Of a stretch of 41,741 nt of DNA, positions 11,714 through 32,550 are shown piece after piece. The stretch covers positions 1 through 41,741 of the forward strand of contig CAJXLV010000033.1 of NCBI GenBank assembly GCA_913056185.1, given 5' to 3'. Below the pieces are notes generated by a model that did no database searches, was not told the DNA's origin, and saw only the letters and a list, made by a program, of their open reading frames with translations. Each line of letters starts with the position of its first letter. Position 1 is the first letter of the stretch. Made by a program: the position numbers and the translations under genes. This stretch comes from an uncultured Bacteroidota bacterium. Its GTDB lineage: Bacteria; Bacteroidota; Rhodothermia; Rhodothermales; Salinibacteraceae.

Positions 11714-11785
11714 GATGCGTGATTCGTGAACCGTGAGGACCCCGCGCAAGAGAGGCGCCTCACGCACTACGATTCACGTTCCACG
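11714..11785. repeat. Heptad inverted-repeat locus 1
   Basis: Forward 7-bp-period units gatgcgt, gattcgt, gaaccgt (11714-11734) are followed after a short loop by reverse units cctcacg, cactacg, attcacg, ttccacg (11758-11785). The arms are partly complementary, giving a hairpin in the spacer between the CPBP and htpX genes. Confidence 0.8.
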
Positions 11786-11834
11786 AGCGGATTGGCTACA
11801 CGTTGGGGGCTCTCCCTCGTTCTGGAACGTCCCG

Positions 11835-12563
11835 CTACCCAAACATCCCCGTCACCACCATCACGTCGTAGAGCGCGTGCGTCCACGCGGCGACCCCAAA
11901 GCCACGCCCCAGGAAGAGCGCGTTGAGGGCGAGGCCGAAGAGGAAGCGGAAGGTAAACGAGGGGAGCGCAAACGGATCGCCGAGCGGCCCCACGTAATGC
12001 GCGCCGCTAAACAGCACCGCCCCCGCCAGCGCAGCGAGGAGATACGCCTGCGTGGGGGACGTCATCAGCCCCCGGAACAGAAGCGCCAGCCCGCCCACGA
12101 GCAGCACGCGGAAGACCAGTTCCTCGTAGAGCCCGGCCCCGATGGACAGGGCGAGCTGCGTCCACAGCGCCCCCTCGGGCGGCGGCACCGCGGCAAACAG
12201 CAGCCCCACGGCCGACGAAACAAGAATGGCCACGCCCACGGCGTACACGGCACTCTCCCCCACGAGGCCTACGAAGTAACGACTTCGCAGCGGAATGCTA
12301 CGGTGCCGATCCAGCAGGTATGCGGCGAGTCCCCCGCCCGCCACGAGGAGTGCGAGGCCGATCCCGCCGGACGCCCCCGTCATTGTCAGCAGGTCCTTGA
12401 TCCACACCCCCGCGCCCACCCGCACCGGCCGCGTGGCATCGAGGTTGACGAGCACGATCATCGTCTCGTACAGCACGAAAAGCGGCAGGGCGCTCCAGAA
12501 GCCGTAGGTCGCCGAGCGCGTGGCCCGGTGGTAGGCGTGCCAGCCGGTTTCGGGACGAGGCAT
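11835..12563 (-). CDS. CPBP-family (CAAX-like) intramembrane metalloprotease
   Basis: Predicted 242-residue polytopic membrane protein. It has the three ABI/CPBP motifs: E147-E148-x3-R152 (YEELVFR), H189 in FSGAHY, and H229 in WTHALYD, all in hydrophobic surroundings. About seven transmembrane segments can be drawn. Family members include prenyl-protein proteases and bacteriocin-immunity proteins; the substrate here is unknown. Start chosen at ATG 12563 (MPRPETGWHAYHRA) instead of the upstream GTG at 12608, which adds a Ser-rich stretch without family resemblance. No bacteriocin gene is nearby. Confidence 0.85.
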   Translation of the reverse strand: MPRPETGWHAYHRATRSATYGFWSALPLFVLYETMIVLVNLDATRPVRVGAGVWIKDLLTMTGASGGIGLALLVAGGGLAAYLLDRHRSIPLRSRYFVGLVGESAVYAVGVAILVSSAVGLLFAAVPPPEGALWTQLALSIGAGLYEELVFRVLLVGGLALLFRGLMTSPTQAYLLAALAGAVLFSGAHYVGPLGDPFALPSFTFRFLFGLALNALFLGRGFGVAAWTHALYDVMVVTGMFG

Positions 12564-12613
12564 GGACGACAGGGGAGACGAGAAAGATAGGCCGAGGTCG
12601 CGAGGCACAACGC

Positions 12614-12726
12614 GTGATGCGTGAAGAGTGATGCGTAACTTGGTCCCTCACGCCGCGGATCACGCCTCACGTGTCACGCCTCACGTGTCACTCCTCACAA
12701 GTCGCACCTCACGTGTCACGCCTCAT
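12614..12726. repeat. Heptad inverted-repeat locus 2 (largest)
   Basis: Three forward heptads (gtgatgc, gtgaaga, gtgatgc; 12614-12634) are followed by ten reverse heptads at 12657-12726 (ggatcac, gcctcac, gtgtcac, gcctcac, gtgtcac, tcctcac, aagtcgc, acctcac, gtgtcac, gcctcat). The last heptad contains the stop codon (TGA on the minus strand, 12723-12725) of the LysM/RlpA-like gene. Confidence 0.9.
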
Positions 12727-13769
12727 TCCGGCCGTCCCTCCAGCCAAACGAGTCGCAGCGCCACCGTCGGCGTCGTGTCGGGGTCGATGCCAAGTTGCTC
12801 GGCCACGGCCGCCGACACGTCCAGCAGCACGCCCTCGTCGAGCGGGCCGCGGTCGATGACGCGGGCGAAGGTGTGGCGGTCGGCGTCGGGGCGCGAGAGA
12901 AGCAGGACGGTGCCGTAGGGGAGCGACGGGTGACTCACCACGAGGGCCTCGGGGTCGTACGGCGCGCCGCTCGTCGTGAGACGGCCCGCAAAGGCGTCGG
13001 GATAGACGGCCACGGCGCCGGTCGAGTCCGGTGCGGCCCAGTCGCCGGGCGGGGGCACGGTGGGGGCCTCTCGGCCCGGGAGGCGGAGGCGCTGGCCCGG
13101 CTGCACCGTGGTCGTGTCGAGGGCATTGGCAGCGCGCAGCGCCCGCACGCTCACGCCGTACTGCCCCGCGATGCTGTAGAGGGTTTCGTCGGGCTGCACG
13201 GTGTGGCCCGGCGGGGCAAAGCGCCGGGGCAGGCGGAGGGTCTGCCCGGGCGAGACCGAGGGGATGCTGTCGTTCAGGGCGTAGAGCGTATCGGCGGGGG
13301 TGCCGAGGCGCAGGGCGAGGTGTACAAACGAGTCGCCCGCCTCTGCCGTGTATCGGCCGTAGAGGGGCGGCGGGCCGGTGGGAACCGGGGGAGTCGTGGC
13401 GGTATCTGCCGTGGCGGGGGCATCTGTTGCGGCGGGCTCCATCGTGGTGGTGTCCGCCGTTGTCGTGTCTGTCGAGACAGTGTCTGGCGCGGCAGCGGTG
13501 GCGTCGTCCGCCTCGCCTGCGGCGTCCGCCGGGCGCTCTGCCTGCGGCGGGCGCACCCGAAGCGCCTGCCCCCTCTGAATGGCCGTTCCCTCCAGATCAT
13601 TCCACCGCTGCAGGGCCGTCACCGACACCCCAAACCGCTGCGCGATGCTGTACAGCGTGTCGCCGGACTGCACCGTGTACACGGAGTCGGCGGGCGCCTG
13701 CTGGGCCGCGCTGGGGCGCGGAAGGGCGGCCGTCGCGAGCACGACGAAAAGGAAGATCGCGGTGCGCAT
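12723..13769 (-). CDS. Secreted triple-LysM protein with RlpA-like double-psi beta-barrel
   Basis: 348-residue exported cell-wall protein. The signal peptide is MRTAIFLFVVLATAAL... with a probable cut near SAAQ. Three LysM modules recognise peptidoglycan glycans: YTVQSGDTLYSIAQRFGVS, YTAEAGDSFVHLALRLG and HTVQPDETLYSIAGQYGVS. A Thr/Asp/Ala-rich linker separates the first from the second. The last ~100 residues (AGRLTTSGAPYDP ... YGTVLLLSR ... RVIDRGP ... LDVSAAVAEQLG) match an RlpA-type double-psi barrel, which in some proteins cleaves denuded glycan strands. ATG 13769 is preferred; a GTG at 13805 would overlap the upstream TPR gene by 4 nt. The stop codon lies inside the heptad repeat. Confidence 0.88.
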   Translation of the reverse strand: MRTAIFLFVVLATAALPRPSAAQQAPADSVYTVQSGDTLYSIAQRFGVSVTALQRWNDLEGTAIQRGQALRVRPPQAERPADAAGEADDATAAAPDTVSTDTTTADTTTMEPAATDAPATADTATTPPVPTGPPPLYGRYTAEAGDSFVHLALRLGTPADTLYALNDSIPSVSPGQTLRLPRRFAPPGHTVQPDETLYSIAGQYGVSVRALRAANALDTTTVQPGQRLRLPGREAPTVPPPGDWAAPDSTGAVAVYPDAFAGRLTTSGAPYDPEALVVSHPSLPYGTVLLLSRPDADRHTFARVIDRGPLDEGVLLDVSAAVAEQLGIDPDTTPTVALRLVWLEGRPE

Positions 13770-13801
13770 GGCGCCATCGGAACGATCACGAAACTCCACG
13801 A

Positions 13802-14131
13802 TCACGAAAATCCAACACCTTCGGCCTTCAGCTTCGCGTCCTGGAGCTCCGAGAGCGCCTTCTGCTCTCGCTGCTCCCGGGCCACGTCAATGCCCTGGGC
13901 GTACGTCTCGATTGCAGCGTCGGTGCGATCGAGCCGCTCGTAGAGCTTGCCGAGGTGGTAGTACGTGCCCACATAGTCGGGATCTGTTTCCACCAGCTCC
14001 TCAAACAGCGCCAGCGCCCGGTCCGTGTGGTCGTGCTTCAGGTGCTCCTGCGCGAGGGCGTACCGCGTAAATGCATCGTCCGGGTCGTCCGCATAGAAGG
14101 ATTTGAGCTGCTCCAGTCGGTCGGTGCTCAT
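13802..14131 (-). CDS. Small TPR protein
   Basis: 109-residue, strongly acidic, soluble protein made almost entirely of tetratricopeptide repeats. Units are visible at ~18-51 (DAFTRYALAQEHLKHDHTDR...) and ~52-85 (YVGTYYHLGKLYERLDRTDAAIETYAQ), with a helical tail. TPRs mediate protein-protein contacts; the partner is not visible. It sits 32 bp upstream of the LysM/RlpA-like gene and is probably co-transcribed with it. Confidence 0.85.
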   Translation of the reverse strand: MSTDRLEQLKSFYADDPDDAFTRYALAQEHLKHDHTDRALALFEELVETDPDYVGTYYHLGKLYERLDRTDAAIETYAQGIDVAREQREQKALSELQDAKLKAEGVGFS

Positions 14132-14200
14132 GGGTCAAGACGGTCAGATTGAGTGTGCCCGATGTCGGATCCTCTATTGAAGTGCGGCAAGAAAGACGAC

Positions 14201-14283
14201 GTGATGCGTGAACACGTGATGCGCGAGAGGTGTCTCTGACGAGTCCATGTGCTGCGTTTCACGGATCACGCCTCATTTCTCAC
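14201..14283. repeat. Heptad inverted-repeat locus 3
   Basis: Forward heptads gtgatgc, gtgaaca and a 1-bp-shifted gtgatgc (14201-14222) are followed by reverse heptads gtttcac, ggatcac, gcctcat, ttctcac ending at 14283. The final heptad contains the TPM gene's TGA stop (14280-14282). Confidence 0.85.
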
Positions 14284-15137
14284 CACGACCCGCCGGCTCC
14301 GCCCCCGCCAAAGCTGCCGCCGCCAAAGCCGCCGAAGCCTCCACCGCCCATTCCCCCGCCGCCCCCGACTCCGCCCGATCCTCCACCCCCACCGCCCCAG
14401 ATGATGATCGGGAGGTCGCCGTGCTGCCGCTTCGTCTTTTTGCTGCCCGTCTTCGGGCCCTGGCCCCGCCTCCAGAACGCACTGCCCACGAAGTACAACA
14501 GAATCAGAACGATGTAGATGAGGGTGGTGGAGATGCCATCGTCGGACGAGGCGGCCGGGGCCTCCTCCGCGGCCGTGTACTCTCCCAGGGTGGCCTGGAT
14601 GATGGCGTCGGTGCCGCGGTCGAGTCCGGCATAGAACTGCCCCTGCCGGAAGGCGGGCGTCATGACACGCTCCACGATGCGGTTGGCGATGGCGTCAGGG
14701 AGGGCGCCCTCCACGCCGTACCCCGTGGCGATGAACATCTTGCGGTCGTCCCGCGAAACGAGCACCACCACGCCGTTGTCCTTGCCCTCCTGTCCCACGC
14801 CCCAGGCCCGCCCCAGCGAGATGGCGTAGTCGTCGACCGGGGCGCCGCCGAGAGACCGGAGCGTGACCACCACGACGGCGGTCGAGGAGGTGTCTTCGTA
14901 GGCGGCCAGCTTGCGGGCCAGCGCGCGCTCCTCCCCGCCCGAGAGCAGGTCGCCCTGGTCAAGCACCGGGCCGCTCGGCTTCGGCGGAAACTCGTAGCGC
15001 TGCCCCACGGCCGACGACGCCCAGACGGACACACAAAGCCCGACCGCGGCGAGAAGAAGCAGAATGAAGCGGGGACGAAACGGCACGGGCCGACGCAGAC
15101 CGGAAAAGAGAGTGCGAATGGAGGAAGACGGCAACAC
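14280..15137 (-). CDS. TPM-domain (YgcG/Psb32-like) membrane protein
   Basis: An exported protein with an N-terminal signal, a TPM domain and a C-terminal anchor. The TPM core runs ~55-190 (VLDQGDLLSGGEE ... TAVVVVTLRSL ... GVGQEGKDNGVVVLVS ... FIATGYGVEGALPD). A helix at ~205-222 (STTLIYIVLILLYFVGSAF) is followed by a basic stretch and a Gly-rich tail ending GGGGAGGSW, as is typical of YgcG. The function is not settled; such proteins are usually encoded beside LemA, as here. The start is uncertain: GTG 15137 gives 285 aa, but GTG 15086 (MPFRPRFILLLLAAVG) would make a cleaner signal peptide. Confidence 0.85.
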   Translation of the reverse strand: MLPSSSIRTLFSGLRRPVPFRPRFILLLLAAVGLCVSVWASSAVGQRYEFPPKPSGPVLDQGDLLSGGEERALARKLAAYEDTSSTAVVVVTLRSLGGAPVDDYAISLGRAWGVGQEGKDNGVVVLVSRDDRKMFIATGYGVEGALPDAIANRIVERVMTPAFRQGQFYAGLDRGTDAIIQATLGEYTAAEEAPAASSDDGISTTLIYIVLILLYFVGSAFWRRGQGPKTGSKKTKRQHGDLPIIIWGGGGGGSGGVGGGGGMGGGGFGGFGGGSFGGGGAGGSW

Positions 15138-15188
15138 GACACGACGGAATGCATGACTCAGCTGTCGACCCTCCTCCTGCGCCCTTAC

Positions 15189-15230
15189 GCTTCACGCATC
15201 ACGCTTCACGCACTACGCTTCACGCATCAC
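15189..15230. repeat. Heptad repeat locus 4 (single arm, six units)
   Basis: Six clean 7-bp units: gcttcac, gcatcac, gcttcac, gcactac, gcttcac, gcatcac. No forward arm is seen. The array supplies the TGA stop of lemA (15227-15229), and its continuation (tcactgc) encodes the last Ser-Glu of LemA. Confidence 0.9.
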
Positions 15231-15832
15231 TCACTGCCAAAGTTCACATCGGGGGCCTGCTCGGCTCCCTGCTCCGCCTCGAACGACGCCTTCTGGTCAA
15301 AGCCCATGAGGCTGGCAAAGAGCACCGTGGGAAACGAGCGCACCTGGGTGTTGTACTGGCGCACGGCGTTGTTGTAGTCGCGCCGCGCCACCGTAATGCG
15401 GTTTTCGGTGCCCTCCAGCTGTGCCTGTAGGTCGCTAAACGACTGCGTCGCCTGCAGTTGCGGATAGTTCTCGGAGACAGCCAGCAGCCGCCCCAGCGAC
15501 TGGCCGAGGGCCGACTGCGCCTGCTGGTATTGCTGCAGCTGCTGGGGATTTTCGAGGCCCTCGGGGGTAACCTGAATGGACGTCGCCTTGGCCCGCGCCT
15601 CCGTGACGGCCGTGAGGGTCTCCTGCTCAAAATCGGCGGCCCCCTTCACCGTCTCTACGAGGTTCGGGATGAGGTCGGCCCGCCGCTGGTACGTGGCCTG
15701 CACATTGGCCCAGGCCTGCTGCACCTGCTCGTCGCCCTGAACGAGGCTGTTGTACGAACTCGTGGCTCCGCAGCCAACGACGCCCAGGACGAGCGCAAGA
15801 ACGACGAGGGTGATGGCACCTTTGCTTCGCAT
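15227..15832 (-). CDS. lemA: LemA-family lipoprotein
   Basis: 201-residue LemA protein. N-terminal signal MRSKGAITLVVLALVLG leads to a lipobox VVGCG, so it is probably lipid-anchored, whereas many LemA proteins have a plain transmembrane helix. The coiled-coil-rich core includes QVQQAWANVQATYQRRADLIPNLV and AVRQYNTQVRSFPTVLFASL, both strongly conserved in the family. LemA is a helical membrane-associated protein of unknown biochemical role. It lies upstream of the TPM gene on the same strand. ATG 15832 is chosen because it places the signal peptide at the N-terminus. Confidence 0.93.
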   Translation of the reverse strand: MRSKGAITLVVLALVLGVVGCGATSSYNSLVQGDEQVQQAWANVQATYQRRADLIPNLVETVKGAADFEQETLTAVTEARAKATSIQVTPEGLENPQQLQQYQQAQSALGQSLGRLLAVSENYPQLQATQSFSDLQAQLEGTENRITVARRDYNNAVRQYNTQVRSFPTVLFASLMGFDQKASFEAEQGAEQAPDVNFGSE

Positions 15833-15939
15833 GAGCGCAGAGTCGGGGTTGGGAGGGTCGGACGTCGAATGCCTTGAGGGGCAGTCTCGGTTCGCCCTAC
15901 GGCTGAGGCCTTCGGGAGTTGCGGGGAGGGGTCTCGCTC

Positions 15940-15971
15940 GGGAAGCGTGGAGACACGGAGGCGTAGAGGCT
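15940..15971. repeat. 8-bp-period repeat upstream of lemA
   Basis: Four octads: gggaagcg, tggagaca, cggaggcg, tagaggct. The pattern resembles the octads between zwf and gnd at 31338-31430. Only one arm is present. Confidence 0.6.
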
Positions 15972-16012
15972 CTCACGTTGCCCTCCTCGGTGGCGGCGCA
16001 GGACTTGAGGTC

Positions 16013-16516
16013 TCACTCGAATTCGACGATGAGGTGCACGTGCTCCTCGGCCCAGTCCACGTGGCTCTGTTTGTGAAGGGCGAGCACTACCACGCCGTCG
16101 TACGCCAGCACGCGGTCGAAGAAATACTCGGCCGTCGTGGGCAAGGCGCGCGCGTCCTCGTCGGGCGTGTCGGGGTGGGTATGGGCAAAGACCGCGTCCG
16201 CGGCGTCGAAGTAGAGCAGGGCCGACTCCTCCGCGGCGTGGTCGAAGGCTTTTCGCAGGGCATTTTGGGTTCGCATGCGTCGCTCGGCCAGCAGCGACGG
16301 CACCTGAAACTGGTGGACGTTGGCGGTGGTGTGGCGGGTGAGCGTGGCCAGGGCGTGCTGCCGGGCCGCACGGGTGCCGCCGTGGAACACAAGACACGGC
16401 CCCTCCGCCGGGGCCGCATCCGCCAGTCGTGTACGGAGCGCCGCTCGGAAGGCAGTCGTGCCGTACTGTACCGAGGAGGCCCCACCCGCCTCGAAAGATG
16501 AAGAGGAATCGGCCAT
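16013..16516 (-). CDS. Degenerate AAA-ATPase-like protein (pseudo-ATPase)
   Basis: 167-residue, acidic, soluble protein. The order of elements matches the C-terminal AAA module of the CDC48-like family in which the sequence ...FGKRSEVRD...YLLQRMEAYRGLAILATN...LRRLRFVVEF is typical. Here the Walker A position reads GGTRAARQ (no GKT/S), Walker B reads LLYFDAADAVF (no catalytic Glu), the line AEYFFDRVLAYDGVVVLALH replaces sensor 1, and HVHLIVEFE closes without the arginines. All nucleotide-handling residues therefore look lost while the fold-determining hydrophobic pattern remains. A regulatory or structural role is inferred. ATG 16516 is used; the extension to 16534 adds only six residues. Confidence 0.6.
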   Translation of the reverse strand: MADSSSSFEAGGASSVQYGTTAFRAALRTRLADAAPAEGPCLVFHGGTRAARQHALATLTRHTTANVHQFQVPSLLAERRMRTQNALRKAFDHAAEESALLYFDAADAVFAHTHPDTPDEDARALPTTAEYFFDRVLAYDGVVVLALHKQSHVDWAEEHVHLIVEFE

Positions 16517-16625
16517 GGCACTGACGGGCGACACACAAAAGAGTTGGGCCGCTCTTAACGTATTGAGTCGGGAACGACGACAAACCGACAGGGCCTGCTT
16601 CCCGTCGGCTGGAGCTGTGGCTTCC

Positions 16626-16655
16626 CCCTCACCTCTCGTGCCCTCACCTCTCGTG
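16626..16655. repeat. 15-bp tandem duplication (2 exact copies)
   Basis: ccctcacctctcgtg at 16626-16640 is repeated exactly at 16641-16655. Confidence 0.9.
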
Positions 16656-16716
16656 TAGCTCGCGGAGCAGACAGAAGACCAACAGCCCGACAGATCCAGG
16701 GCAGTCTGTGAGAACG

Positions 16717-16754
16717 CGAAACATCTTTCGGCTTCAGCCGGGGGAAGAAGTCAA
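16717..16754 (+). mobile_element. Solo IS200/IS605-like right-end relic (plus orientation)
   Basis: A CGGCT-TC-AGCCG stem (16729-16740) is followed by ggggaagaagtcaa. The end (gccgggggaagaagtcaa) matches, with one extra A, the sequences at 35745-35761 and 41643-41659 on the other strand. A hairpin followed by a GTCAA-type edge is the usual form of IS200/IS605 tnpB-side ends. No transposase is adjacent. Family assignment is inferred from form. Confidence 0.4.
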
Positions 16755-16909
16755 GTATTCCGAGAAATATTTGTTTCCCGGTCGAAGCGTATGGTTGGGG
16801 ACGCGAATCGGGAGCGAGGGAGAGCCGCGGTCTCCCCCGTCGCTGCGCCCTTTGGCCCTGCCCGTGTGCCCCTGTGCGCCGGCCGCCCTGCCGGCTGTCC
16901 CTTCCCGAG

Positions 16910-19777
16910 CTACCCCGTGCTTTGCATGGCGGCGGCCACGCCGTTGATGCTGAGGAAGAGAGCCTCGCGGAGGGTTTCCTGCTCTCCTTCATCCGTGCTG
17001 GATCGGTACCGTTTCAGGAGCTCAATCTGGAGCAGGTTCAGCACGTCGGTGTACGGATTGCGCAGCTCGATCGACTTCTTGAGAACCGGGTTGCTGTTGA
17101 AAAGCGCCTTCTGATCAGTGATCTCGAGGATGGCGTCCTCGGCCTGCTCGTAGTCCTCCACAATGCGTGGGTGGAACGAGGTCTCCACGTCGGCGAGGGC
17201 ATCGTACCGCTCAGCGATGGGGAGGCGCGCGCGGGCCATCTCGCGCTGGGCGCTGTCCAGCACGGCCTGGAAGAAGGGCCAATGTTGGTACAGGTCGCGG
17301 AGGGTCTGTCGGGCGTCGGGGGACTCGTCCAGAAGCGTATGGAGGGCCTGCCCGGTGCCGTACCACCCCGGCACGATGTAGCGCGTCTGGGTCCAGGCAA
17401 AGACCCAGGGAATGGCGCGCAGGTTTTCGAACTGCACCTCCTCGCCTTCGGAGGCGCGCGACACGGGCCGGGAAGCGATGGGCAGGCGGCTGATGTGCTC
17501 GATGGGGGTGGCGGCGGTGTACCACTGCCAGCCGTCGGGGTCGTCGATGAACGCGCGGTAGGCCGACATCCCCTCCTCCGCCAGGCGGTCCATGAGATCC
17601 ACCACGCGCGACTCCATCGACACCTTGTCGGCGAGCAGCGGGTTCTCGTCGGACGGTCCGTCCTGCGCAGTGGCCGTGAGGGTGGCACTCACAATTTGCT
17701 CTACGTGGCGGCGCGCAATGTCGGGCAGGGCGTAGCGAAAGGAGATGATCTCCCCCTGCTCGGTCATGCGGATGCGGCCGTTGTGCACGACCGGAGGGAG
17801 GGCCCGGATGGCCTTGGAGGTGTGGCCGCCCCCGCGCCCGACCGTGCCGCCGCGGCCGTGGAAGAGGCGCAGGTCCACATCGTGCTCGTCGCACACCACC
17901 CCGAGCGCGTGGGTGGCCTTGTGCAGGGCCCAGTTGGCCATCCAGTAGCCGCCGTCCTTGTTGCTGTCGGAGTAGCCCAGCATAATTTCCTGAAAACCGT
18001 CGCGCCCGTCCAGGTGAGTGGCGTAGACCGGGTGCGTGAAAAGCGTCTCCATCCGGTCGTCCGCCGAATCGAGGTCGTCAATTGTCTCGAAGAGAGGCAC
18101 CACGTCGAGCGGGCACTGGTAGCCGCCCTCCTCCACCGCGCCGAGGCCCGCCTCTTTCGCCAGCAGCATCGGCTCCAGCAGGTCGCTCACGCTGTGGGTC
18201 ATGCTCACCACATAGCTGCCCACCCCATTCGGGTCGACTTCGTGCATCGCCCGAATCACGCCGAAGACCTCCATCAGCTCCGCCGCGTCGGGGGGAAGGT
18301 CTGCGTGGCGGCTCACCAGTGGGCGCGGGGTCTGGAGCTCGTCGGAGAGCACCGCCAGTTTTTCGTCTTCGGAGAGGGCGGCGTAGTTTTCCGTCACGCC
18401 GCCGGCGTCGAGCAGAGCGGCCACCGTGTCCTCGTGGACCCCGCTGTGCTGGCGCACGTCGAGCGCGGCAAGGTGAAAGCCGAACGTCTTCACCAGCGAG
18501 CGCAGGCGGTGCAGCTGGCCGCTCCGGGCCGCCTCCTCGAAGCCGTGGTCGTGAAGGCTCTCAGCAATCAGGTCGAGGTCGGCGAGCAGGTCGTCGGCGG
18601 TGTATCCGCCCGCCATCTTCTCGATGTCGGTGTCGTCCACCGCGTCGATGAGGGTGCGGAGCCGTTCCTCGATGTAGCACAACTTGAGTCGGTAGGGCTC
18701 GTGCCGGTGCTGCTGCCGCAGGGCCTCGGGCAGGTCGATGCTGGACGCATCCGCCTCTATCGACGCCTGCAGGGCGTCCGAGACGGTCAGCTGGCGCGTG
18801 GAGATGCTGAGGTCGTCGCGCAGCTCGTCGATCTCGTCGAGGTAGTGCTCCAGCGTGGTGCGGCGCTGGCGGGCAAAGGTCCAGCGCGTCACGTCGGCCG
18901 TCACGTTGGGATTGCCGTCGCGGTCGCTCCCGATCCAGGAGCGGTACTGCAGGAAGGCGGGCAGCTCGGCGGTGGCGTCGTAGTGGCGGCGCAGCGCCTG
19001 CTGCACGTCGCGGTGGAGGGTGGGGATGGTGTCCCAGATGGAGCCGTGCAGGAAGTAGTGGCCCTGCTCCACCTCCTCCCGCACCGTGGGCCGCTCGGCC
19101 CGCACCTCGTCGGTGCCCAAGAGGAACGCGATCTGGCTGTAGAGACGGTCCAGCGTCTCGGCCCGCTCGTCGGGCGTGGCGTCGGGGCGGCGCAGCGTGG
19201 AGAGCAGGTCGGCAATGTGTTGCTCCTTGCGCAGCACCGAGCGGCGGCGCGCCTCCGTGGGGTGGGCCGTGAGGGTGGGCTGGATGTCGAGCTGCTCGAA
19301 GACCGCCACCACCTCGTCGAGCGAGTACCCCTCGTCGTTGAGGGACGCCACCGCCGCGTCGATCGACTGCGGGCGCGGCTCCGCGTCGGAGGCGCCGTTC
19401 TCGGTGCCCGGCCCCAGCGGCCACTCGGACGGGCCGGAAGCACGGGCGCGCTCGCGATTGATGCGGATGATTTCCTGCTGCTCCGCCTGATTGACGAGGT
19501 GGAAGAATGTGGTGTAGACGTGCAGCAGCCGCTCCAGCGTATCTTGATCGAGCTCCGCGATGCGTCGCGCCGCTTCTTCGCGCTGCTCCGGTGCCCCTTC
19601 CTGCTCCGCATCCTTGCAGAGCGCCCGCAGTCCCTCCACGTGCTCAAAGAGGGCCGTGCCGCCCTGCTCTTCGGCAACGCGCCCCAGCATGCTGCCCACC
19701 AGGTTGACCTGGCGGCTGAGGGGGCGCGAGATGCCGGTGCCTTCCGTGTCGAGGTCGAGGGTGTCCCAGCGGGGCAT
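16910..19777 (-). CDS. ppc: Phosphoenolpyruvate carboxylase
   Basis: Cytosolic anaplerotic enzyme converting phosphoenolpyruvate and bicarbonate to oxaloacetate. At 955 residues it has normal family length. Signatures in order: TAHPTEARRRSVL (~167, catalytic His), GSDRDGNPNVTADVT (~281), GYSDSNKDGGYWMANWAL (~599) and FHGRGGTVGRGGG (~638, catalytic Arg-Gly loop). The C-terminus SINGVAAAMQSTG corresponds to the conserved family end (INGIAAGLRNTG type), although the position usually held by Asn-Thr-Gly here reads Ser-Thr-Gly. The start is ATG 19777 (MPRWDTLDLD); the in-frame extension to 19999 is Arg-rich and overlaps the end of the sigma gene, so it is rejected. Confidence 0.97.
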   Translation of the reverse strand: MPRWDTLDLDTEGTGISRPLSRQVNLVGSMLGRVAEEQGGTALFEHVEGLRALCKDAEQEGAPEQREEAARRIAELDQDTLERLLHVYTTFFHLVNQAEQQEIIRINRERARASGPSEWPLGPGTENGASDAEPRPQSIDAAVASLNDEGYSLDEVVAVFEQLDIQPTLTAHPTEARRRSVLRKEQHIADLLSTLRRPDATPDERAETLDRLYSQIAFLLGTDEVRAERPTVREEVEQGHYFLHGSIWDTIPTLHRDVQQALRRHYDATAELPAFLQYRSWIGSDRDGNPNVTADVTRWTFARQRRTTLEHYLDEIDELRDDLSISTRQLTVSDALQASIEADASSIDLPEALRQQHRHEPYRLKLCYIEERLRTLIDAVDDTDIEKMAGGYTADDLLADLDLIAESLHDHGFEEAARSGQLHRLRSLVKTFGFHLAALDVRQHSGVHEDTVAALLDAGGVTENYAALSEDEKLAVLSDELQTPRPLVSRHADLPPDAAELMEVFGVIRAMHEVDPNGVGSYVVSMTHSVSDLLEPMLLAKEAGLGAVEEGGYQCPLDVVPLFETIDDLDSADDRMETLFTHPVYATHLDGRDGFQEIMLGYSDSNKDGGYWMANWALHKATHALGVVCDEHDVDLRLFHGRGGTVGRGGGHTSKAIRALPPVVHNGRIRMTEQGEIISFRYALPDIARRHVEQIVSATLTATAQDGPSDENPLLADKVSMESRVVDLMDRLAEEGMSAYRAFIDDPDGWQWYTAATPIEHISRLPIASRPVSRASEGEEVQFENLRAIPWVFAWTQTRYIVPGWYGTGQALHTLLDESPDARQTLRDLYQHWPFFQAVLDSAQREMARARLPIAERYDALADVETSFHPRIVEDYEQAEDAILEITDQKALFNSNPVLKKSIELRNPYTDVLNLLQIELLKRYRSSTDEGEQETLREALFLSINGVAAAMQSTG

Positions 19778-19989
19778 AGGGGCGAGTGGGGCGCGTGTCA
19801 AGGTTTTGTGAGAGCACCGTAAACGTACGGCGCATCCGGCACGGCTCCAAACGCGAGGACCTGCCCAGGCAGGCTCTTCAGTCAATTGTAACACCCGCGG
19901 CCCCGCCCTTGCTTTTGGAAGCGCTTTTGAAGATCCCCTCCTTCTCGCAAAGCGGATGTTCTGGAGGCCCCCCTCGCCGCGCCGGCGCG

Positions 19990-20838: not shown

Positions 20839-20923
20839 CGCTCACGCCGCCTCCCTCGTGCGCTCCGCCCCCATGCTCCGCGCGACGCAGGCACGGAGCA
20901 CGGGGGGACCGGTGGAGGACGGC

Positions 20924-23711: not shown

Positions 23712-24039
23712 GGTTCGTTTTTGGGTTGAGCGTTGAAATGTCGCACGTTACAGGCTGGGGAGGGAGGCTGAAGAAGGGACACGGACCTCAGGAAGTCGCC
23801 CTATACACCGAACTCCCTCTTCCCCTTTCGTCCACTCTCTCTTTCGCCTCACCGACACCGCCCGTAACAGATCGGGGCGCCGGGCCACACAGGGCCACTC
23901 GAGTCCCGTTCCCTCCCTTCCTCTGTGCCTTCTCGTCTCTTTGGCAGCGATGTGGCGGTTTTGTGGATCTTGTCGGAAGACAGCCGTTTCCCTAAAGGCC
24001 ACTGCCGGACCACACATCCAGACCGCAGAGCGGGCTGAC
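23712..24039 (+). other. Intergenic interval, nothing recognised
   Basis: About 330 bp of pyrimidine-rich sequence after the flavin/Fe-S fusion gene. I see no coding signal, repeat or terminator that I can support. Confidence 0.5.
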
Positions 24040-24329
24040 ATGAGCACGCCAAAAGATGCGCACAGAGGCGCGGAGCGCGACACTGCCGCCGCGATTCCGC
24101 TCGGGATCGGTGGGGGCGTCGCTGCCGTGGGCGCCCACATCGCCCACTTCTTTCGGGGCGACTGGCGGCTCCTCGCGCTGCGTCAGCTCGACCGTACCGT
24201 TTTCGAGAGCGACGTCATTATGGACGCGCCCGGACCCACCCGTCTTGCGTCGTGCGCGATGTCGTGGTGCCCAACCCGTTTCACAAGCCTCCGGAGACGG
24301 TGCGGGCAGAATTGACCGCAGACGAGTGA
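24040..24329 (+). pseudogene. Small unknown ORF with probable frameshift
   Basis: From ATG 24040 the frame encodes MSTPKDAHRGAERDT, then PLGIGGGVAAVGAHIAHFF, LLALRQLDRTVFESD and VIMDAPGPT. It then turns Cys/Arg-rich after ~24240. In the neighbouring frame from 24249 a sensible protein continues: VVRDVVVPNPFHKPPETVR, ending AELTADE-stop at 24327-24329. A one-base indel near 24240-24250 would join both halves into a ~95-residue protein. No family is recognised. It lies 44 bp upstream of the sigma-54 activator on the same strand. Confidence 0.4.
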
Positions 24330-24373
24330 GGCACAACGGCCACTCCCCCGTCCACTGAGCGCACCCCTCTTCG

Positions 24374-27300
24374 ATGATGGAGCTTTCTCACCACACCTCG
24401 GACCTGGACCCGTCGTCGGTTCTGGGCTTCGGGTCGGCCCTGGCGCTTCTGAACGCGCCGGAAGAGGTGGCCCGTCTGCTCACCGGAGCCCTGCGCTCCA
24501 TGGGCCTTGCGGACCTGCAGGCCGTGGTGCTCGACGACGCCGTGGAGGGCGGGCCCCGTGTGTTGGGGAGCGCGGGGGTACGCTCGTTGCCTGAGCCCGT
24601 TGCGGATGAGCTGCAGCAGTGGACCGCCGACGCGTCCGGCCAAGCGGGGGAAGACGCTGCCCCCCCGTCCCACCGCCAGCTGGACGTGCCCGAAGAGAGC
24701 GCCGTTGCCGAGCAGGGCATCGACCGCCTCGTCGTGACGCGGCTGGGCACCCTCGAGCGCGACTTTGGCGTGGCCGTGGCGGGGTTGGATGCGGGCACGA
24801 CCCACACGTCTCTCCAGGTCTCTTCGCTGCAGATGCTGGCCGCGCAGGCCTCAATGGCACTGCACCGGATCGAGCTGGACCGGGAGCAGGCGGCTCAAGA
24901 GACGGCCCCGCGCGAGAGTGAGGCCCGCTACCGGGAGCTCTACGAAAACGGGCCGGTAGCCTCCCTGTCCGTCACCGCGGAGGGCGAGATTCGCATGGCC
25001 AACCGGCGCGCCACGGAGCTCTTCGACGTGTCGGAGGCAACGCTCGTCGGGCGTTCGATTCTCGACTTCTGTGCAGGGCCCCTCGGGGGCCAAGAGGCCG
25101 CCCAGCGACTGGCACAGTGCCTCCGGGACGGAGAGCCAGTGCGCGACGACGAGGTGGCCCTGTGCCCCCCCGACGGAGACCAACTCTGGGTGCGCCTCAC
25201 CATGCGTCCGGTTGAGGGGGACGATGCGCCCCGCGAGCGCCTCGTCATGATGGTGGACGTGACCGAGCGGCGCCGCATGGACGCAGCCCTGCGCGACGCC
25301 CGCGATGAATTGGAGGACCGCGTGGCGGCCCGCACCGCGGAGCTGCGGAAGGCCAACGATCGCCTTTCTCAGCACACCCGCCGCCTGGAGGCGCTCCACG
25401 AGATCGACCAGGCCATCCTGGCCGCAGAGTCGCCCCGCGAGATTGCCACCGAGACGCTCCGGTGCGCCTGTCAGCTTATTCCCTTCCATCGTGCCAGCGT
25501 TTCGGTTCTCGACCACGACGCCGGCGTGGCCCGCGTGCTCGCTACCCGCCAGGAGGATACGCTCCTGGACCGCGGCACCACCATCCCACTTGACGACTTT
25601 CACCTGCCCGAGGGCGTGCGGGCGGGGGAGGCCGTGGTGATCCCCGACCTGTCCGCGCGCACCCACTCCCCCATTGCCGCCCAGGTGCGCGCCGCCGGCG
25701 TCCACTCCGTCCTCTGCCTCCCGATGCTCGCGGACGGCACCCTCTACGGCCTGCTCCAAATTGGGCGCACCCACCCCGACGCCTTTTCCGAAGAGGACCG
25801 GGCGGTAGGCACCCAGCTGGCCGACCATCTGGTCATCGCCCTCCGGCAGAGCCGGCTGCTGAGGACCGTGCAGGCCCAGCGCGAGCGCCTCGAAGCACGC
25901 GTGCAGGCCCGCACCCGAGAGCTAAAAGAGGCCAACGATGCACTCACCGAGGAAGTCGATGAACGCAAGCAGGCCGAGCGCGCCCTTCGTCGCAGCCGCG
26001 AGCGCCTCACCCGCATTATCGACTCCGCGATCGATGCCATCATCAGCATCGACCCGTCGCTGAACATCCACCTCTTCAACACCGCGGCGGAGGAGATCTT
26101 CCGCTGCAGCGCCCCCGACGCAACGTGCACCTCGCTCGACGCCTTTCTGTCGGAGCCGTTTGAGGCCCTCGTGCGCCGCCATATCGAGGCGCACCAGGCG
26201 GCTCAGCGGGCAGGCGACGGGGCGGCCCCAAACGGGCACTACCTCTCCGCCCCCGACGGCCTGCGGGCGCGCCGCGCCGACGGCACCTTCTTCCCCGTCG
26301 AGGCCACGCTCTGCCCCATTCAGCTGCCGGGCCGCCCGCGCTACCTCATCATCCTGCGCGATATGGACGAGCTGGTGCAGGCGGAGGAAGAAGTCGCTCA
26401 GCTCGAGTCAGAGCGCTCGTACCTGCAGGAGGAGCTCAAAAACGAGTACAACTTCGACGAGATTGTGGGCACCTCTCCGCCCATGCAGGCCGTCTTCGAC
26501 GCGATTGACCGGGTCGCCGCCACAGAAACGACGGTCCTCGTCTGCGGCGAAACGGGCACGGGCAAAGAGCTGGTGGCCCGTGCCCTGCACGACCGCAGCG
26601 CCCGGGCCGACCAGGTGCTCGTCAAGGTGAACTGCGCGGCCCTGTCCAACGACCTGATCGAGAGCGAGCTCTTTGGGCACGAGAAGGGCGCCTTTACCGG
26701 GGCTACGGAGCAGCGCGAGGGCCGGTTTGAGCTGGCGGACGGCGGCACGCTGTTCCTGGATGAGGTCGGCGAGCTGCCGCTCGATACGCAGGCAAAGCTG
26801 CTGCGCGTGCTGCAGCACCAGACGTTTGAGCGCGTGGGGGGCAGCCGCACGCTGGAGGTGGACACGCGCATTCTCGCCGCCACCAACCGCGACCTGGAGG
26901 CCGCGGTGGAGGCGGGGGCGTTCCGCTCGGACTTGTACTACCGCCTCCACATTTTCCCGATTGAGGTGCCCCCGCTTCGGGAGCGCACGGGCGACATTCC
27001 CCGGCTCGCGGAGCATTTCTGCGAGATGTATGCCTCTCGTACAGGGACGACGGTGGAGGGGCTCACCCCGGAGGCCCTCACCGTCCTGCGTCGCTACGAC
27101 TGGCCCGGCAATGTGCGCGAGCTGGCCAACATCATCGAGCGCGCGATTCTCCTCACGCGCGACGGCGTCCTCCGGCCCAAGCACCTCTCCATTCGCGAGG
27201 CGGTGGAGAACGAGCGCCCCGCCTCTTTTCCTACGCTGGAGGCGGTGCAGCGGCGCCATATCGAGCGCGCCCTGGAACGAACCGGCGGCGTGGTGGGGGG

Positions 27301-27397
27301 CGATGCGGGCGCGGCGCAGCTGCTCGACCTCAAGCGCACGACACTGCTCTCCCGCATGGACCGCCTGGGCATCGACGCGGACGCCTTCCGCTCCTGA
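24374..27397 (+). CDS. Sigma-54-dependent transcriptional activator with GAF/PAS sensors
   Basis: 1,007-residue bacterial enhancer-binding protein. An N-terminal GAF-like segment (~20-175) is followed by PAS (~180-300, [20 protein letters not shown]), a coiled coil, a second GAF (~345-500), another coiled coil and a second PAS (~545-670). The AAA+ domain has the sigma-54 contact loop GAFTGA (~769), Walker A GETGTGKE (~724) and Walker B FLDEVGE. A Fis-type helix-turn-helix ends the protein ([18 protein letters not shown]). The FhlA-like layout has no receiver domain, so it should sense small ligands or redox state directly. It implies an RpoN in this organism. Its stop lies 21 bp from the convergent reductase stop. 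Targets are not visible. Confidence 0.93.
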
Positions 27398-27418
27398 GGC
27401 CTTCCGCTCGCAAGAACG

Positions 27419-28831
27419 TCACGCGGCCGCTGACGCCCTCAGGTCGAGGTCGGCGAAGAGGTTGTTGAGCGACTCGGCAAGCGTGGGGTGTGCGTACGGT
27501 GCCTGCTGGAGGCGCGTTACCGGCACCTCTCCCATCATGGCGGTGTGCAGGATGGACATCACCTCCCCGCCCTCGATGCCCAGAATGGCCGCGCCCAGGA
27601 GCTGGTGCGTCTCCGCGTCGACCACCGCTTTCATGAGGCCGCGCGGCTCATCCACCTCCAGCGCCCGGGCCACATGCGCCATCGGCATTCGGGCCACCGC
27701 CACGTCGCGGCCCTGGTCGCGCGCCTGCTCTTCGCTGAGGCCCACGCGCCCAAGCTGCGGATCGGTAAAGAGGGTGTAGGCCAGGATGCGGTCGTCGGTG
27801 GTGGCAGGCGCTCCGGCAAGCAGGCGGTCGCGCAGGACGCGGTAGTCGTCGTAGGAGACATGCGTGAAAGCCGGGCCACCCGTCACGTCCCCGATGGCGT
27901 AGACGCCGTCGACCTCCGTCTCGAGGCGCTCGTTGACCGGCACAAAGCCGCGGCGGTCCGTCTCGAGGCCCGCTGCCTCCAGGCTCAGCGCGTCGGTGTT
28001 GGGGCGGCGGCCCACTGCCAGGAGCAGGTGCGACGCGTCCAGGTGGTCGGGGGCGCCGTCGCCGTTCAGGTGCGCCGTAATCGTCCCGTCGGCGGCCTGT
28101 TCGACGGCCGTCATGCCGGTTTCGTTGAGGATGCGGAGGCCGTCCTCGCGCAGGATGTCCCCGAGCGTTTCCGCCACGTCGGCATCCTCACGCCCCAGGA
28201 TGTGCTCGCCCCGGTCAACGATTGTGACCTCGGCCCCAAACCGCCGAAACATCTGCCCGAACTCCAGCCCGATGTAGCCGCCGCCAAGGATGAGGAGGTG
28301 CTCGGGCACTGTGCCAAGCTCCATGATGGAGGTAGACGTCAGGGCGTCGACTGCGTCCAGGCCGTCGATGGGGGGACGCACGGGCCGTGCCCCCGTATTG
28401 ATGACGATGTGGGGAGCGGTGAGGGTGCGCGTGCCGCCGTCGTTGAGATCTACCGCCAGGGCGTGGGCGTCGACAAAGCGGCCCGCGCCCTCAATCAGGT
28501 CGAGGCCGTCGGTGTCCTCCACGCTACGGCGGCTTCCGGCCCGGAACGTCTCCACGATGTCGCGCTTGCGTTGGCGCACCGCCGCCAGGTCCACCGTCAC
28601 ATCACCGATGTGAACGCCGTAGTCCTCGGCGCGGCGGGCGAGGTGGGCCACGCGGGCGCTGGCGATCATGGTCTTGGTGGGGGTACAGCCTTCATTCACG
28701 CAGGTGCCCCCCACGTGGGCCCGTTCGACGAGCGCGACGGAGTGGCCGTGGTCGGCGGCACTGCCGGCAAGAGGGCCGCCGCCCTGCCCGGCACCGAGGA
28801 CGATGAGGTCGTAGGAGGTGGGGTCTGCCAT
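27419..28831 (-). CDS. FAD-dependent pyridine-nucleotide-disulfide oxidoreductase (Lpd/MerA-like)
   Basis: 470-residue class I disulfide reductase. FAD-binding GAGQGG (13-18), redox-active C44 and C49 in GGTCVNEGCTPTK, NAD(P)-binding GGGYIGLEFG, FAD motif VYAIGDVTGGP, and a dimer-domain PYAHPTLAESL supplying the conserved His-Glu pair. It is neither clearly a lipoamide dehydrogenase (no 2-oxoacid dehydrogenase genes nearby) nor a mercuric reductase (no HMA domain, no C-terminal Cys pair). The substrate is unknown. It is the last gene of the pentose-phosphate cluster, 92 bp after pgl, so an NADPH-dependent role is a reasonable guess. Confidence 0.9.
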   Translation of the reverse strand: MADPTSYDLIVLGAGQGGGPLAGSAADHGHSVALVERAHVGGTCVNEGCTPTKTMIASARVAHLARRAEDYGVHIGDVTVDLAAVRQRKRDIVETFRAGSRRSVEDTDGLDLIEGAGRFVDAHALAVDLNDGGTRTLTAPHIVINTGARPVRPPIDGLDAVDALTSTSIMELGTVPEHLLILGGGYIGLEFGQMFRRFGAEVTIVDRGEHILGREDADVAETLGDILREDGLRILNETGMTAVEQAADGTITAHLNGDGAPDHLDASHLLLAVGRRPNTDALSLEAAGLETDRRGFVPVNERLETEVDGVYAIGDVTGGPAFTHVSYDDYRVLRDRLLAGAPATTDDRILAYTLFTDPQLGRVGLSEEQARDQGRDVAVARMPMAHVARALEVDEPRGLMKAVVDAETHQLLGAAILGIEGGEVMSILHTAMMGEVPVTRLQQAPYAHPTLAESLNNLFADLDLRASAAA

Positions 28832-28923
28832 TGGGGACTGCGAGGGGGAGATGTGGAGGCACAGCGGGATGTGTGCATCGGTGACGCGGGAGGCGTGGGC
28901 GTTACACGATTGGCGCGGGGCCG

Positions 28924-29643
28924 CTACGCCGTGGGGCGGGCCGCGTGGTCAACATACCAGTCGGCGCGGGTGCGGGGGGCGATGTGGGTGCCGGGGCACG
29001 AGGGATCCTGGTCGTCGAGCACGGCGCGGAGGGCCTCGCGTTTGTGTGCCCCTGCGACCAGCACGAGGGCCCGGCGTGCGCCATTGAGCACCGGCAGCGC
29101 GCACGTAATTCGTGGAGACACCTCGTGGCGGGGGGGGGCCTCCACGACGCGGACCCAGTCGTCTGATTGGCCCAGCGCCGGGGTTTCGGGAAAGAGCGAG
29201 GCAGTGTGGGCGTCGGCGCCGAGGCCCAGGAGGACGGTGTCGAACGTGGCGCCACGGTCCGCAAAGAACCGGCGCAGCGTGTGCTCGTACGCCGCGGCCG
29301 CCGCCGCAGGTGGGGTGCGGTCTGTGGGGATGGGGTGTACGTGTGCCGCTGGGCAGGGCGCGTCGGAGAGCAGAGTGCGCTGCACCAGGCGGTGATTGCT
29401 GCGGGGGTCCGTGGGCGGCACGTAGCGCTCATCCCCCCAGAACAGATGGAGCTGCTCCCACGGCAGCGGGCCTTCGGCCTCCGTGGCGAGGAGCTCATAG
29501 AGCCGCTGCGGGGTGCCCCCACCCGCCAGGGCGAGGGTGTATCGGTCCTGCACGGCGAGGCGCGATTGCATATCCTCGAGGAGGGCACGGGCCGCCGCAC
29601 GGCTCAGGGGCTCCAGGTCCGCAAATCGGTGAATGCGCGTCAT
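28924..29643 (-). CDS. pgl: 6-phosphogluconolactonase
   Basis: 239-residue DevB/Pgl-type enzyme that hydrolyses 6-phosphoglucono-1,5-lactone to 6-phosphogluconate, the second step of the oxidative pentose-phosphate pathway. Conserved segments: LALAGGGTPQRLYELL (~38), LHLFWGDERYVPPTDPRSNH (~65-84) and VLLGLGADAHTASLFPET (~137-154). The usual GDGHTASLFP reads GADAHTASLFP. Length is normal. It lies downstream of zwf, which makes its substrate. Confidence 0.93.
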   Translation of the reverse strand: MTRIHRFADLEPLSRAAARALLEDMQSRLAVQDRYTLALAGGGTPQRLYELLATEAEGPLPWEQLHLFWGDERYVPPTDPRSNHRLVQRTLLSDAPCPAAHVHPIPTDRTPPAAAAAAYEHTLRRFFADRGATFDTVLLGLGADAHTASLFPETPALGQSDDWVRVVEAPPRHEVSPRITCALPVLNGARRALVLVAGAHKREALRAVLDDQDPSCPGTHIAPRTRADWYVDHAARPTA

Positions 29644-29720
29644 AGCAGAAGAAAATCAGGCCCCGCAGGCGCAGAGGCGGGGCGGCCGTGAAACGGTCTC
29701 GACAGTCGTTGCGGGGCGTG

Positions 29721-29762
29721 GCCCGTCCACACGAGCCCGTCCACACGAGCCCGTCCACACGA
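29721..29762. repeat. 14-bp tandem repeat (3 exact copies) between zwf and pgl
   Basis: gcccgtccacacga repeats at 29721-29734, 29735-29748 and 29749-29762, followed by gcccgcc. Confidence 0.92.
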
Positions 29763-29785
29763 GCCCGCCCGGAGCGGAAGGTGCG

Positions 29786-31279
<1,494 letters not shown>

Positions 31280-31337
31280 TTCGGGTTGAGTGTTGGTGCG
31301 TTGTGGGTTGGGCGCTCATGGCTGCAACCGAGCAGAC

Positions 31338-31430
31338 TGGAGGCTGTGGAAGCATGGACGCTTCGGATGCTGCGGACGCGTGGAGGCACCAGCGTTCCTG
31401 CCTCCATGCGTCCAGACTTCCACGCCTCCA
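31338..31430. repeat. 8-bp-period inverted repeat between gnd and zwf
   Basis: The forward arm at 31338-31361 (tggaggct, gtggaagca, tggacgc) and the reverse arm at 31408-31430 (gcgtccagacttccacgcctcca) are complementary with few mismatches. Read on the minus strand, the reverse arm is TGGAGGCG-TGGAAGTC-TGGACGCA-TGGAGGCA, a TGGA-led octad series. This is distinct from the 7-bp heptad family. Confidence 0.8.
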
Positions 31431-31492
31431 CGCTTTCTCCCCATCGAGGCAGATCCAGTCGAGTGGATCAGTTGCGTTTGAGGAGAAACTGC

Positions 31493-32404
31493 CTACTCCT
31501 CGGACTCCTTAACATCGTGGCCGCCAAACTGATTGCGCATGGCGGCGAGGAGCTTGTGGGTGTAGGAATCCTCCACGCGCGAGTCGAGGCGCGAGATGAG
31601 AGCGTCGGTGATGACGGGGGCGGGCACGTCGAGGTCGATCGCCTCCTTCACCGTCCAGCGCCCCTCGCCCGAGTCGTCGACCCAGGGCTCGATGCCGGAC
31701 AGGTCCTGGTCCTCGTCCAGCGCGCGGGCCGTGAGGTCGAGCAGCCAGGAGCGCACGACGCTTCCGAACCGCCACGTCTCAGCCACCTGCTGCAGGTCGA
31801 GGTCGAACTCGTCCTTGGCCTGCATGATGTCGAAGCCCTCGGCGTAGGCCTGCATGACGCCGTACTCGATGCCGTTGTGCACCATCTTGACGAAGTGGCC
31901 GGAGCCAACGTCGCCCATGTGCCCCCAGCCCTTGTCCGGCCCCGGCGCGAGCGTCGTGAGGGCGGGGCGCAGCTGGTCGACGGCCTCCTCGGCGCCGCCC
32001 ACCATCATGCTGTAGCCCTCGTCCAGCCCCCACACGCCGCCGGAGGTGCCGACGTCGACGTAGTGGAGGCCGTGCTCCTGCAGGCGCTCGGCGCGGCGGA
32101 GGGTGTCCTTGTAGTTCGAGTTGCCGCCGTCCACGACGATATCGCCCTCGCCCAAGAGCGGCAACAGGTCGTCGAGTGTGGCGTCGACGGCGTCGCCCGC
32201 CGGCACCATCATCCAGCAGACGCGGGGCGGGGCCAGTTCGTCGACGAGGGCATCGAGGGCCGGGGCGCCGGTCGCACCGTCCTCCGCAAGGGCCTGCACG
32301 GCGCTTTCGTCGAGGTCGAAGCCCACGACCTCGTGGCCGTCGCGCAGGAGGCGCCGGCTCATGTTCGCGCCCATCTTGCCGAGCCCGATCATTCCGAGTG
32401 TCAT
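31493..32404 (-). CDS. gnd: 6-phosphogluconate dehydrogenase, short (YqeC/GndA) type
   Basis: 303-residue oxidative decarboxylase making ribulose-5-phosphate from 6-phosphogluconate. The N-terminal Rossmann motif is MTLGMIGLGKMGANMSRRL, then VVDGGNSNYKDTLRRAE, DVGTSGGVWGLDEGYSMMVGG (substrate site) and GSGHFVKMVHNGIEYGVMQAYAEG (catalytic Lys, His-Asn). The ~300-residue length identifies the short, often NAD-preferring type instead of the 470-residue NADP type. The cofactor cannot be settled from the sequence alone. It sits between tal-pgi and zwf. Confidence 0.95.
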   Translation of the reverse strand: MTLGMIGLGKMGANMSRRLLRDGHEVVGFDLDESAVQALAEDGATGAPALDALVDELAPPRVCWMMVPAGDAVDATLDDLLPLLGEGDIVVDGGNSNYKDTLRRAERLQEHGLHYVDVGTSGGVWGLDEGYSMMVGGAEEAVDQLRPALTTLAPGPDKGWGHMGDVGSGHFVKMVHNGIEYGVMQAYAEGFDIMQAKDEFDLDLQQVAETWRFGSVVRSWLLDLTARALDEDQDLSGIEPWVDDSGEGRWTVKEAIDLDVPAPVITDALISRLDSRVEDSYTHKLLAAMRNQFGGHDVKESEE

Positions 32405-32480
32405 CGCAGAGGGGAATCTTGTTCGTATAAAAGAGCAGTGTGGAGCGTCGGGGGGCGTCCGTTTCGGTGGAGAGGGGTGC

Positions 32481-32550
32481 GTGAGGAGTGATGCGTGAAG
32501 CCCCCAGAACAGGCGATCACGGATCCCGTCCTCACGCTTTGCGCATCATG
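32481..32550. repeat. Heptad inverted-repeat locus 5
   Basis: Forward heptads gtgagga, gtgatgc, gtgaagc (32481-32501) are followed by degenerate reverse units (cgatcac, ggatccc, gtcctcac, gctttgc, gcatcat). The last contains the TGA stop (32546-32548) of the tal-pgi fusion. Confidence 0.8.

Follow-up and report, generated by a model that had tools for sequence, protein, structure and literature searches.

Background

The closest described counterpart of the elements reported here is the parS site of plasmid pSM19035, in which contiguous, non-palindromic WATCACW heptads, in direct and inverted orientation, are bound as duplex DNA by the omega protein (ParB), with one dimer per heptad (PMC9499535). 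Omega binds two repeats, direct or inverted, with high affinity (PMC9499535, PMC4498918), and at least four contiguous repeats are required for full activation of ParA (PMC9499535). Our elements come from a stretch of DNA of 41,741 nucleotides ("the window"; contig CAJXLV010000033.1 of assembly GCA_913056185.1) from an uncultured Bacteroidota bacterium of the family Salinibacteraceae, and they are arrays of GTGANNN units with the layout (GTGANNN)n-core-(NNNTCAC)m. They share with parS the contiguous 7-bp units with a TCAC core, and parS is the nearest precedent for a protein that reads TCAC at a 7-bp pitch. On the other hand, their NNN is free, unlike the flanks in WATCACW (among 393 units, position 5 is T in 153, G in 106, A in 90 and C in 44, and position 7 is C in 281), they possess a spacer core and an outward order of GTGA, and they lie behind genes, with dozens per chromosome.

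Among simple repeats with long units, heptanucleotides are the most frequent in many bacterial genomes (PMC4679880, on Mrazek 2007). GGGNATC heptads of Xanthomonas and Nostoc are intergenic and lie 0-50 bp from stop codons on the coding strand, or upstream of the next open reading frame (ORF) on the non-coding strand (PMC4692102); they differ from GTGANNN in that the whole heptad is repeated, in the formation of G-quadruplexes, and in sequence. TAACTGA direct repeats of Beggiatoaceae are intergenic heptads that hold stop codons and are distributed patchily over phyla, including Bacteroidetes (PMC4679880), but they too are whole-heptad repeats, with one indirect repeat only, and are located upstream of start codons. 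In Geobacter metallireducens, tandem octa- and heptanucleotide sites occur mostly as opposite-strand pairs, one class comprising five MTYCTGA heptads (PMC2700814); these differ in sequence and are described there as predicted regulator sites. A unit of the GTGANNN type, the GTGATTA heptanucleotide of Helicobacter pylori, is reported as one example by van Belkum (cited in PMC4692102). Our search of the open-access literature yielded analogues only, and no description of paired GTGANNN arrays.

A gapped heptad code

The window is one contig (C33) of a genome of 3.27 Mb, denoted G000. GTGANNN heptads had been predicted in five spacers of the window, and this is borne out: all five contain such units in 7-bp register. 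An array script that required at least two exact GTGA at a spacing of 7, with one degenerate unit tolerated between them, identified eight arrays in the window, all within these spacers, none inside the gene models (made by a simple codon-bias finder, not Prodigal, with rough start codons); 200 dinucleotide shuffles gave a mean of 1.2 and a maximum of 4. For arrays with at least three exact units the count is six, and the shuffles gave a mean of 0.02 and a maximum of 1. Genome-wide, the three-unit pattern GTGANNNGTGANNNGTGA has 119 matches (67 + 52) in G000 and none in the reversed control, and a two-armed pattern has 41 (each seen on both strands) against none reversed. The stretches of G000 were mostly picked for containing matches, the exceptions being contigs C1 and C2 and the window (325 kb together); in this unselected sample GTGA-GTGA distances peak at 7, 14, 21 and 28. 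When all 256 tetramers were ranked at periods of 5-12, GTGA at period 7 came first in four genomes, in stretches that were partly GTGA-selected.

What is conserved in the unit is the tetramer and the pitch. We scored the agreement of a middle unit only where the two units around it agree with each other, which in G000 gives 372/392 positions (95%) for GTGA and 69/184 (38%) for NNN. The corresponding values are 199/208 and 34/89 in G010, 70/72 and 16/27 in G003 (two of the 13 genomes of the genus), 573/588 and 215/309 in G041 (Pyrinomonadaceae), and 2083/2124 and 769/1069 in 119 stretches taken from other genomes. Differences between species amount to 11/167 for GTGA and 25/125 for NNN, or to 43/248 and 53/188 (p = 0.007) if units seen in one species only are included, both comparisons being biased toward GTGA by the detection of arrays. 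In a repeat that spreads by slippage, all seven positions should persist or decay together; the retention of GTGA with loss of NNN is the chief reason for considering recognition instead. An analogy with the STRR (short tandemly repeated repetitive) heptanucleotides of cyanobacteria, drawn in the original prediction, thus holds for the 7-bp period but not for repetition of the whole unit.

The stretches of G000 comprise 50 elements with at least three exact units, 30 of them two-armed. Co-directional genes flank 41 of the 50, convergent genes 4 and divergent genes 3, and 2 are at contig ends. Background spacers of at least 30 bp in the same stretches number 366, 66 and 88, respectively, and divergent spacers are thus avoided (3/48 placed elements versus 88/520).

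Three-unit GTGA arrays are present in 29 of the 41 relatives surveyed, including all 13 genomes of the genus. One congener, G004, has only two three-unit matches, and its orthologous spacers hold no arrays, with partly decayed units. In the phylum as a whole, the paired pattern with three units per arm was found in 15/395 genomes and 7/170 genera, with the reversed control matching in one genome. A scan of other genomes with this pattern returned at least 119 stretches, a number that gives no estimate of prevalence; the 80 titles listed include Chloroflexi, Acidobacteria, Bacteroidetes, Verrucomicrobia, Nitrospira, Oscillatoria, Betaproteobacteria, Gemmatimonadaceae and Armatimonadetes. Gene order in these 119 stretches was left unused, as their ORFs of at least 450 nt include spurious antisense ones. 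Viral contigs carry arrays as well (at least 120 stretches with a one-arm four-unit pattern, again no measure of prevalence), while a plasmid search with one spacer as the query found no match. The linkers vary by genome, with GTGACAA and GTGACGA in G041 and GTGATGC in G042 (Chloroflexi CFX4). In G042 the paired pattern has 351 forward matches and 3 in the reversed control, and several of the listed elements have the core CCAGAGAGACA in common. In G041, GTGAATC-type elements are nested in the cores of GTGACNA elements (L458, 15879-16017 and 18541-18681; L450, 3962-4100).

Arm order, cores and RNA pairing

The arms follow a single order, GTGA first and TCAC second, in 70/70 two-armed elements of five genus genomes (among them the 9/9 of the unselected sample) and 43/43 of G041, the stretches of G003, G010 and G041 having been picked in part with the two-armed pattern; in viral contigs, which were selected by one arm, the order is the same in 32/33, the remaining one being +-+. 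Inverted arms of this kind, placed directly behind stop codons, would suit an RNA hairpin at the 3' end of the message, whose GUGA/UCAC helices might block exonucleases or RNA polymerase or act in antitermination, and in G041 the NNN indeed covary between the arms and T-rich tails follow. In the Salinibacter-type genomes, however, swapped arms fold as well as the native ones or better. Identity of the NNN between arms in G000 is 0.527, versus 0.582 after swapping (497/500 swaps at least as high), and the minimum free energy of folding is weaker than in 40/40 swaps; G010 arms give 0.576 versus 0.574 swapped, and G010 and G003 are alike in folding energy. G-U and A-C mismatches on the sense strand number 21/26, 20/14, 6/4 and 32/48 in four sets and 44/35 in a fifth, of 46 elements from other genomes, none of them significantly uneven, and the lack of a G-U excess over A-C counts against a selected RNA hairpin. 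In G000 and G010 no T tail is seen: TTTT follows 0/27 and 3/23 elements, respectively, compared with 1 and 4 for the 15 nt beyond. The two terminator-like sites in 11600-15900 both lie outside the elements (shuffles give 1.8), and an Rfam scan of the window returned no match at the gathering score. The role of mRNA 3'-end stabiliser or attenuator put forward originally finds no support in the mismatch counts, and we regard the hairpin as an unlikely explanation of the elements.

The cores, too, can be compared. Only 2/30 in G000 and 0/26 in G010 exceed the 99th percentile of shuffled cores, which indicates that elements of the Salinibacter-type genomes are not copies of each other.

Inheritance of position and change of motif

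A second family of inverted heptads, CGTANNN (CGTATTG, CGTATTT, CGTAGTG), shares its spacers with GTGANNN (G003, G010, G001, G019, G035) and occurs in 12/13 genus genomes and 22/41 relatives. Table 1 gives the occupancy of the five window spacers in orthologous positions.

Table 1. Heptad family found in the orthologues of the five window spacers
Spacer	GTGA	CGTA	None	Not readable
CPBP to M48	G000, G005	G010, G003	G004, G009, G001	
LysM to CPBP	G000, G005, G010	G003	G004, G002, G009, G001, G013	
TPM to TPR	G000, G005 (plus two CGTA units), G010, G003		G004, G002, G001, G015, G013	G009
lemA to TPM	G000, G010, G006, G009		G005, G004, G003, G002, G007, G012, G001, G013	
tal-pgi to 6PGD	G000, G005, G010, G006, G011	G003, G001	G004	

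A broader comparison covered 78 pairs of orthologous spacers in G010 and G003, in stretches selected around the elements of these two genomes. GTGA arrays stand in 20 of the G010 spacers, whose G003 counterparts carry GTGA in 8 cases, CGTA in 8 (one has both) and neither in 5; where G010 has no GTGA array (58 pairs), G003 has GTGA in none and CGTA in 2. An array of either family is therefore found in G003 at 15/20 of the GTGA spacers of G010 and at 2/58 of the others. With pairs that have CGTA in G010 or GTGA in G003 left out, CGTA occurs in G003 in 6/11 versus 1/57 (p = 2.8e-5). Between these two close species, position is inherited more than the motif. Mixing of the two families at the level of units was also considered: 30 of 34 degenerate middle units in GTGA arrays are one-mismatch variants and 3 are of the GTANNNC type, so no clear exchange between the families is visible.

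Fast gain and loss between close species, exemplified by the five spacers that carry neither family in G003, would be expected of a selfish or neutral dispersed palindromic repeat, either similar to REP (repetitive extragenic palindromic) sequences and MITEs (miniature inverted-repeat transposable elements) or generated by slippage and template switching, that accumulates behind stops, where it is least harmful. The avoidance of divergent spacers and the related cores and nested elements of G041 agree with such an origin. Yet slippage copies whole heptads, and GTGA alone is kept; the cores are unrelated in Salinibacter-type genomes; and replacement by another motif at the same site would require strong hot spots, hence we give this explanation, too, a low probability. 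REP sequences, with the BIMEs (bacterial interspersed mosaic elements), and MITEs are short intergenic inverted repeats dispersed over the genome, but they lack a heptad code, and the link of the former to RAYT was not found here. As a driver of the arrays RAYT was rejected: the Y1 transposase domain (PF01797) is present in G000 and G003 and absent from the array-rich G005, G010, G011 and G023, with 61, 91, 226 and 143 three-unit matches, respectively.

Stop codons

According to the original prediction, the TGA stop of the upstream gene belongs to a heptad at four of the five loci. For TPM and lemA this is an exact GTGA unit, whereas for the LysM gene and tal-pgi the stop keeps the register in a unit that starts with ATGA; in the fifth spacer (11712) the upstream gene ends in a TAG at a distance of 95 bp. 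As had been noticed, the repeat region does include the final Ser-Glu codons of lemA. A tie of the family to gene 3' ends is evident in three genus genomes, where 41 of the 81 gene ends that face a GTGA arm have their TGA in an exact unit (30: 17/43 in G000, 10/30 in G010, 3/8 in G003) or otherwise in register (11). Stops in exact units account for 18/44 facing ends in G041 and for 63/173 facing ORF ends in the 119 stretches taken from other genomes.

Since 7 equals 1 modulo 3, three units supply TGA in all three reading frames, and any ORF that overruns into an array will end there. In these 119 stretches the first, second and third units are used as the stop in 25, 23 and 15 cases, as three reading frames would give. 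Of the other 110 ORF ends, 61 carry a stop of their own, TAA and TAG included, at 0-11 bp ahead of the array, with no preference for register (15/87); arrays also stand after TAA and TAG. The proposal that the repeat grows from or targets TGA is accordingly not supported as stated, and the link to stop codons is mainly a by-product of the TGA contained in a 7-bp unit. The stop-bearing unit is nevertheless the first, second, third or fourth in 17, 11, 1 and 1 cases in the genus, and the first three in 12, 3 and 3 cases in G041, a preference by which the start of the array is possibly anchored at the stop to some extent. Orthologues of lemA that lack an array end in ..NFD* or ..NFN*, and those that carry one, intact or as remnants, end in ..FGSE*, ..FNSDS*, ..FGSDS* or ..FGDE*, the exception being G009, which has the array and ends in ..NFD*.

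Stops inside arrays are thus used, and the order of the arms places TGA outward on both sides, as would be the case if the elements were cassettes selected as a reserve signal for ending translation, presenting TGA in all frames to ribosomes that arrive from either flank. We find this very improbable: it leaves unexplained the G before TGA and the inverted arms between co-directional genes, many elements follow a gene's own stop, and most of the listed CGTANNN units (CGTATTG, CGTATTT) contain no stop at all.

A proposed double row of DNA docking sites

An array of DNA sites accounts better for the kept tetramer, the fixed pitch, the inward order of arms, the unrelated cores, the absence of an RNA pairing signature and the change of motif at the same site, taken together, than does an RNA hairpin or a repeat made by slippage. 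We tentatively propose, rating the chance as somewhat less than even, that the elements are docking arrays in the DNA at the 3' ends of genes, the association with stop codons being mainly incidental. Each element would be a double row of docking sites that are read by their GTGA; the pitch is constant at 7 bp, the three linker bases are mostly free, and the two rows face inward around an unrelated core, directly behind stops and mostly between co-directional genes. The candidate reader would be an oligomerising protein that recognises duplex DNA and coats the rows in the manner of omega, a ribbon-helix-helix protein, on contiguous WATCACW heptads, and the coated rows may mark or insulate the 3' ends of genes.

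Several observations weigh against this proposal. None of the 41 relatives encodes an Omega_Repress protein (PF07764) above the cut-off, so that the resemblance to parS is one of code and pitch only; of two weak matches (G004, G014), the stronger sits in G004, the array-poorest genome of the genus. Known omega sites lie over promoters, and GTGA arrays do not. The switch to CGTANNN shows that GTGA is dispensable at a site. In G041, moreover, the NNN of the two arms are complementary (0.846 versus 0.715 swapped, with 0/500 swaps as high) and TTTT follows 10/37 elements versus 3/37, with 6.00 versus 3.03 T per 15 nt, which fits an RNA hairpin there; and the cores are related in 34/43 elements, as in a dispersed repeat.

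Arrays and other features of the window

Table 2 lists the arrays. Inverted arms had been claimed for four of the five spacers and are seen in four, although the second arm is degenerate in the CPBP to M48 and tal-pgi spacers; the array behind lemA has one polarity only. By Pfam, the genes flanking the arrays encode an M48 peptidase, a CPBP (Rce1-like) protein, a LysM + DPBB protein, TPR, TPM and LemA proteins, a 6-phosphogluconate dehydrogenase-like (6PGD) protein and a transaldolase-phosphoglucose isomerase fusion (tal-pgi). Three further features of the window are given at the end of the table.

Table 2. Heptad arrays and additional features of the window
Feature	Position	Strand	Remarks
GTGA arm, CPBP to M48 peptidase spacer	11712-11739	+	3 exact units (CTGATGC GTGATTC GTGAACC GTGAGGA); genes on -
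Degenerate second arm, same spacer	11757-11784	-	On -: GTGGAAC GTGAATC GTAGTGC GTGAGGC
GTGA arm, LysM/DPBB gene to CPBP spacer	12614-12641	+	3 exact units
GTGA arm	12657-12726	-	8 exact units of 10; contains LysM/DPBB TGA stop (12723-12725, unit ATGAGGC)
GTGA arm, TPM to TPR gene spacer	14201-14214	+	2 exact units
GTGA arm	14256-14283	-	3 exact units of 4; contains TPM TGA stop (14280-14282, unit GTGAGAA)
Single-polarity array	15182-15230	-	5 exact units in two runs separated by GTAGTGC; contains lemA TGA stop (15227-15229)
GTGA arm, tal-pgi to 6PGD-like gene spacer	32481-32501	+	3 exact units
Degenerate second arm	32529-32549	-	On -: ATGATGC GCAAAGC GTGAGGA; contains tal-pgi TGA stop (32546-32548)
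Transaldolase and phosphoglucose isomerase domains	32546-35314		One fused open frame
75-bp tandem repeat	2848-3737		About 12 copies, within long minus-strand open frame 3-6269
Perfect 14-bp tandem repeat	29721-29767		3.4 copies (GCCCGTCCACACGA), just ahead of gene model at 29786

Conclusions

There is no agreed cause of the heptanucleotide repeats of bacteria. In the arrays analysed here a tetranucleotide and its pitch are kept and not the whole repeat, which points to recognition rather than slippage, and the site outlives the motif. A wider generalization, which we consider doubtful but worth stating, is that they represent a cross-phylum class of chromosomal elements with a gapped code (GTGA every 7 bp, with free linkers) in two inward rows, which would mark gene 3' ends for a putative DNA-coating factor; within lineages the site would be retained while its word changes from GTGANNN to CGTANNN, much as if one reader or dialect had been traded for another. 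Given the abundance of the elements, a reader protein should be findable.

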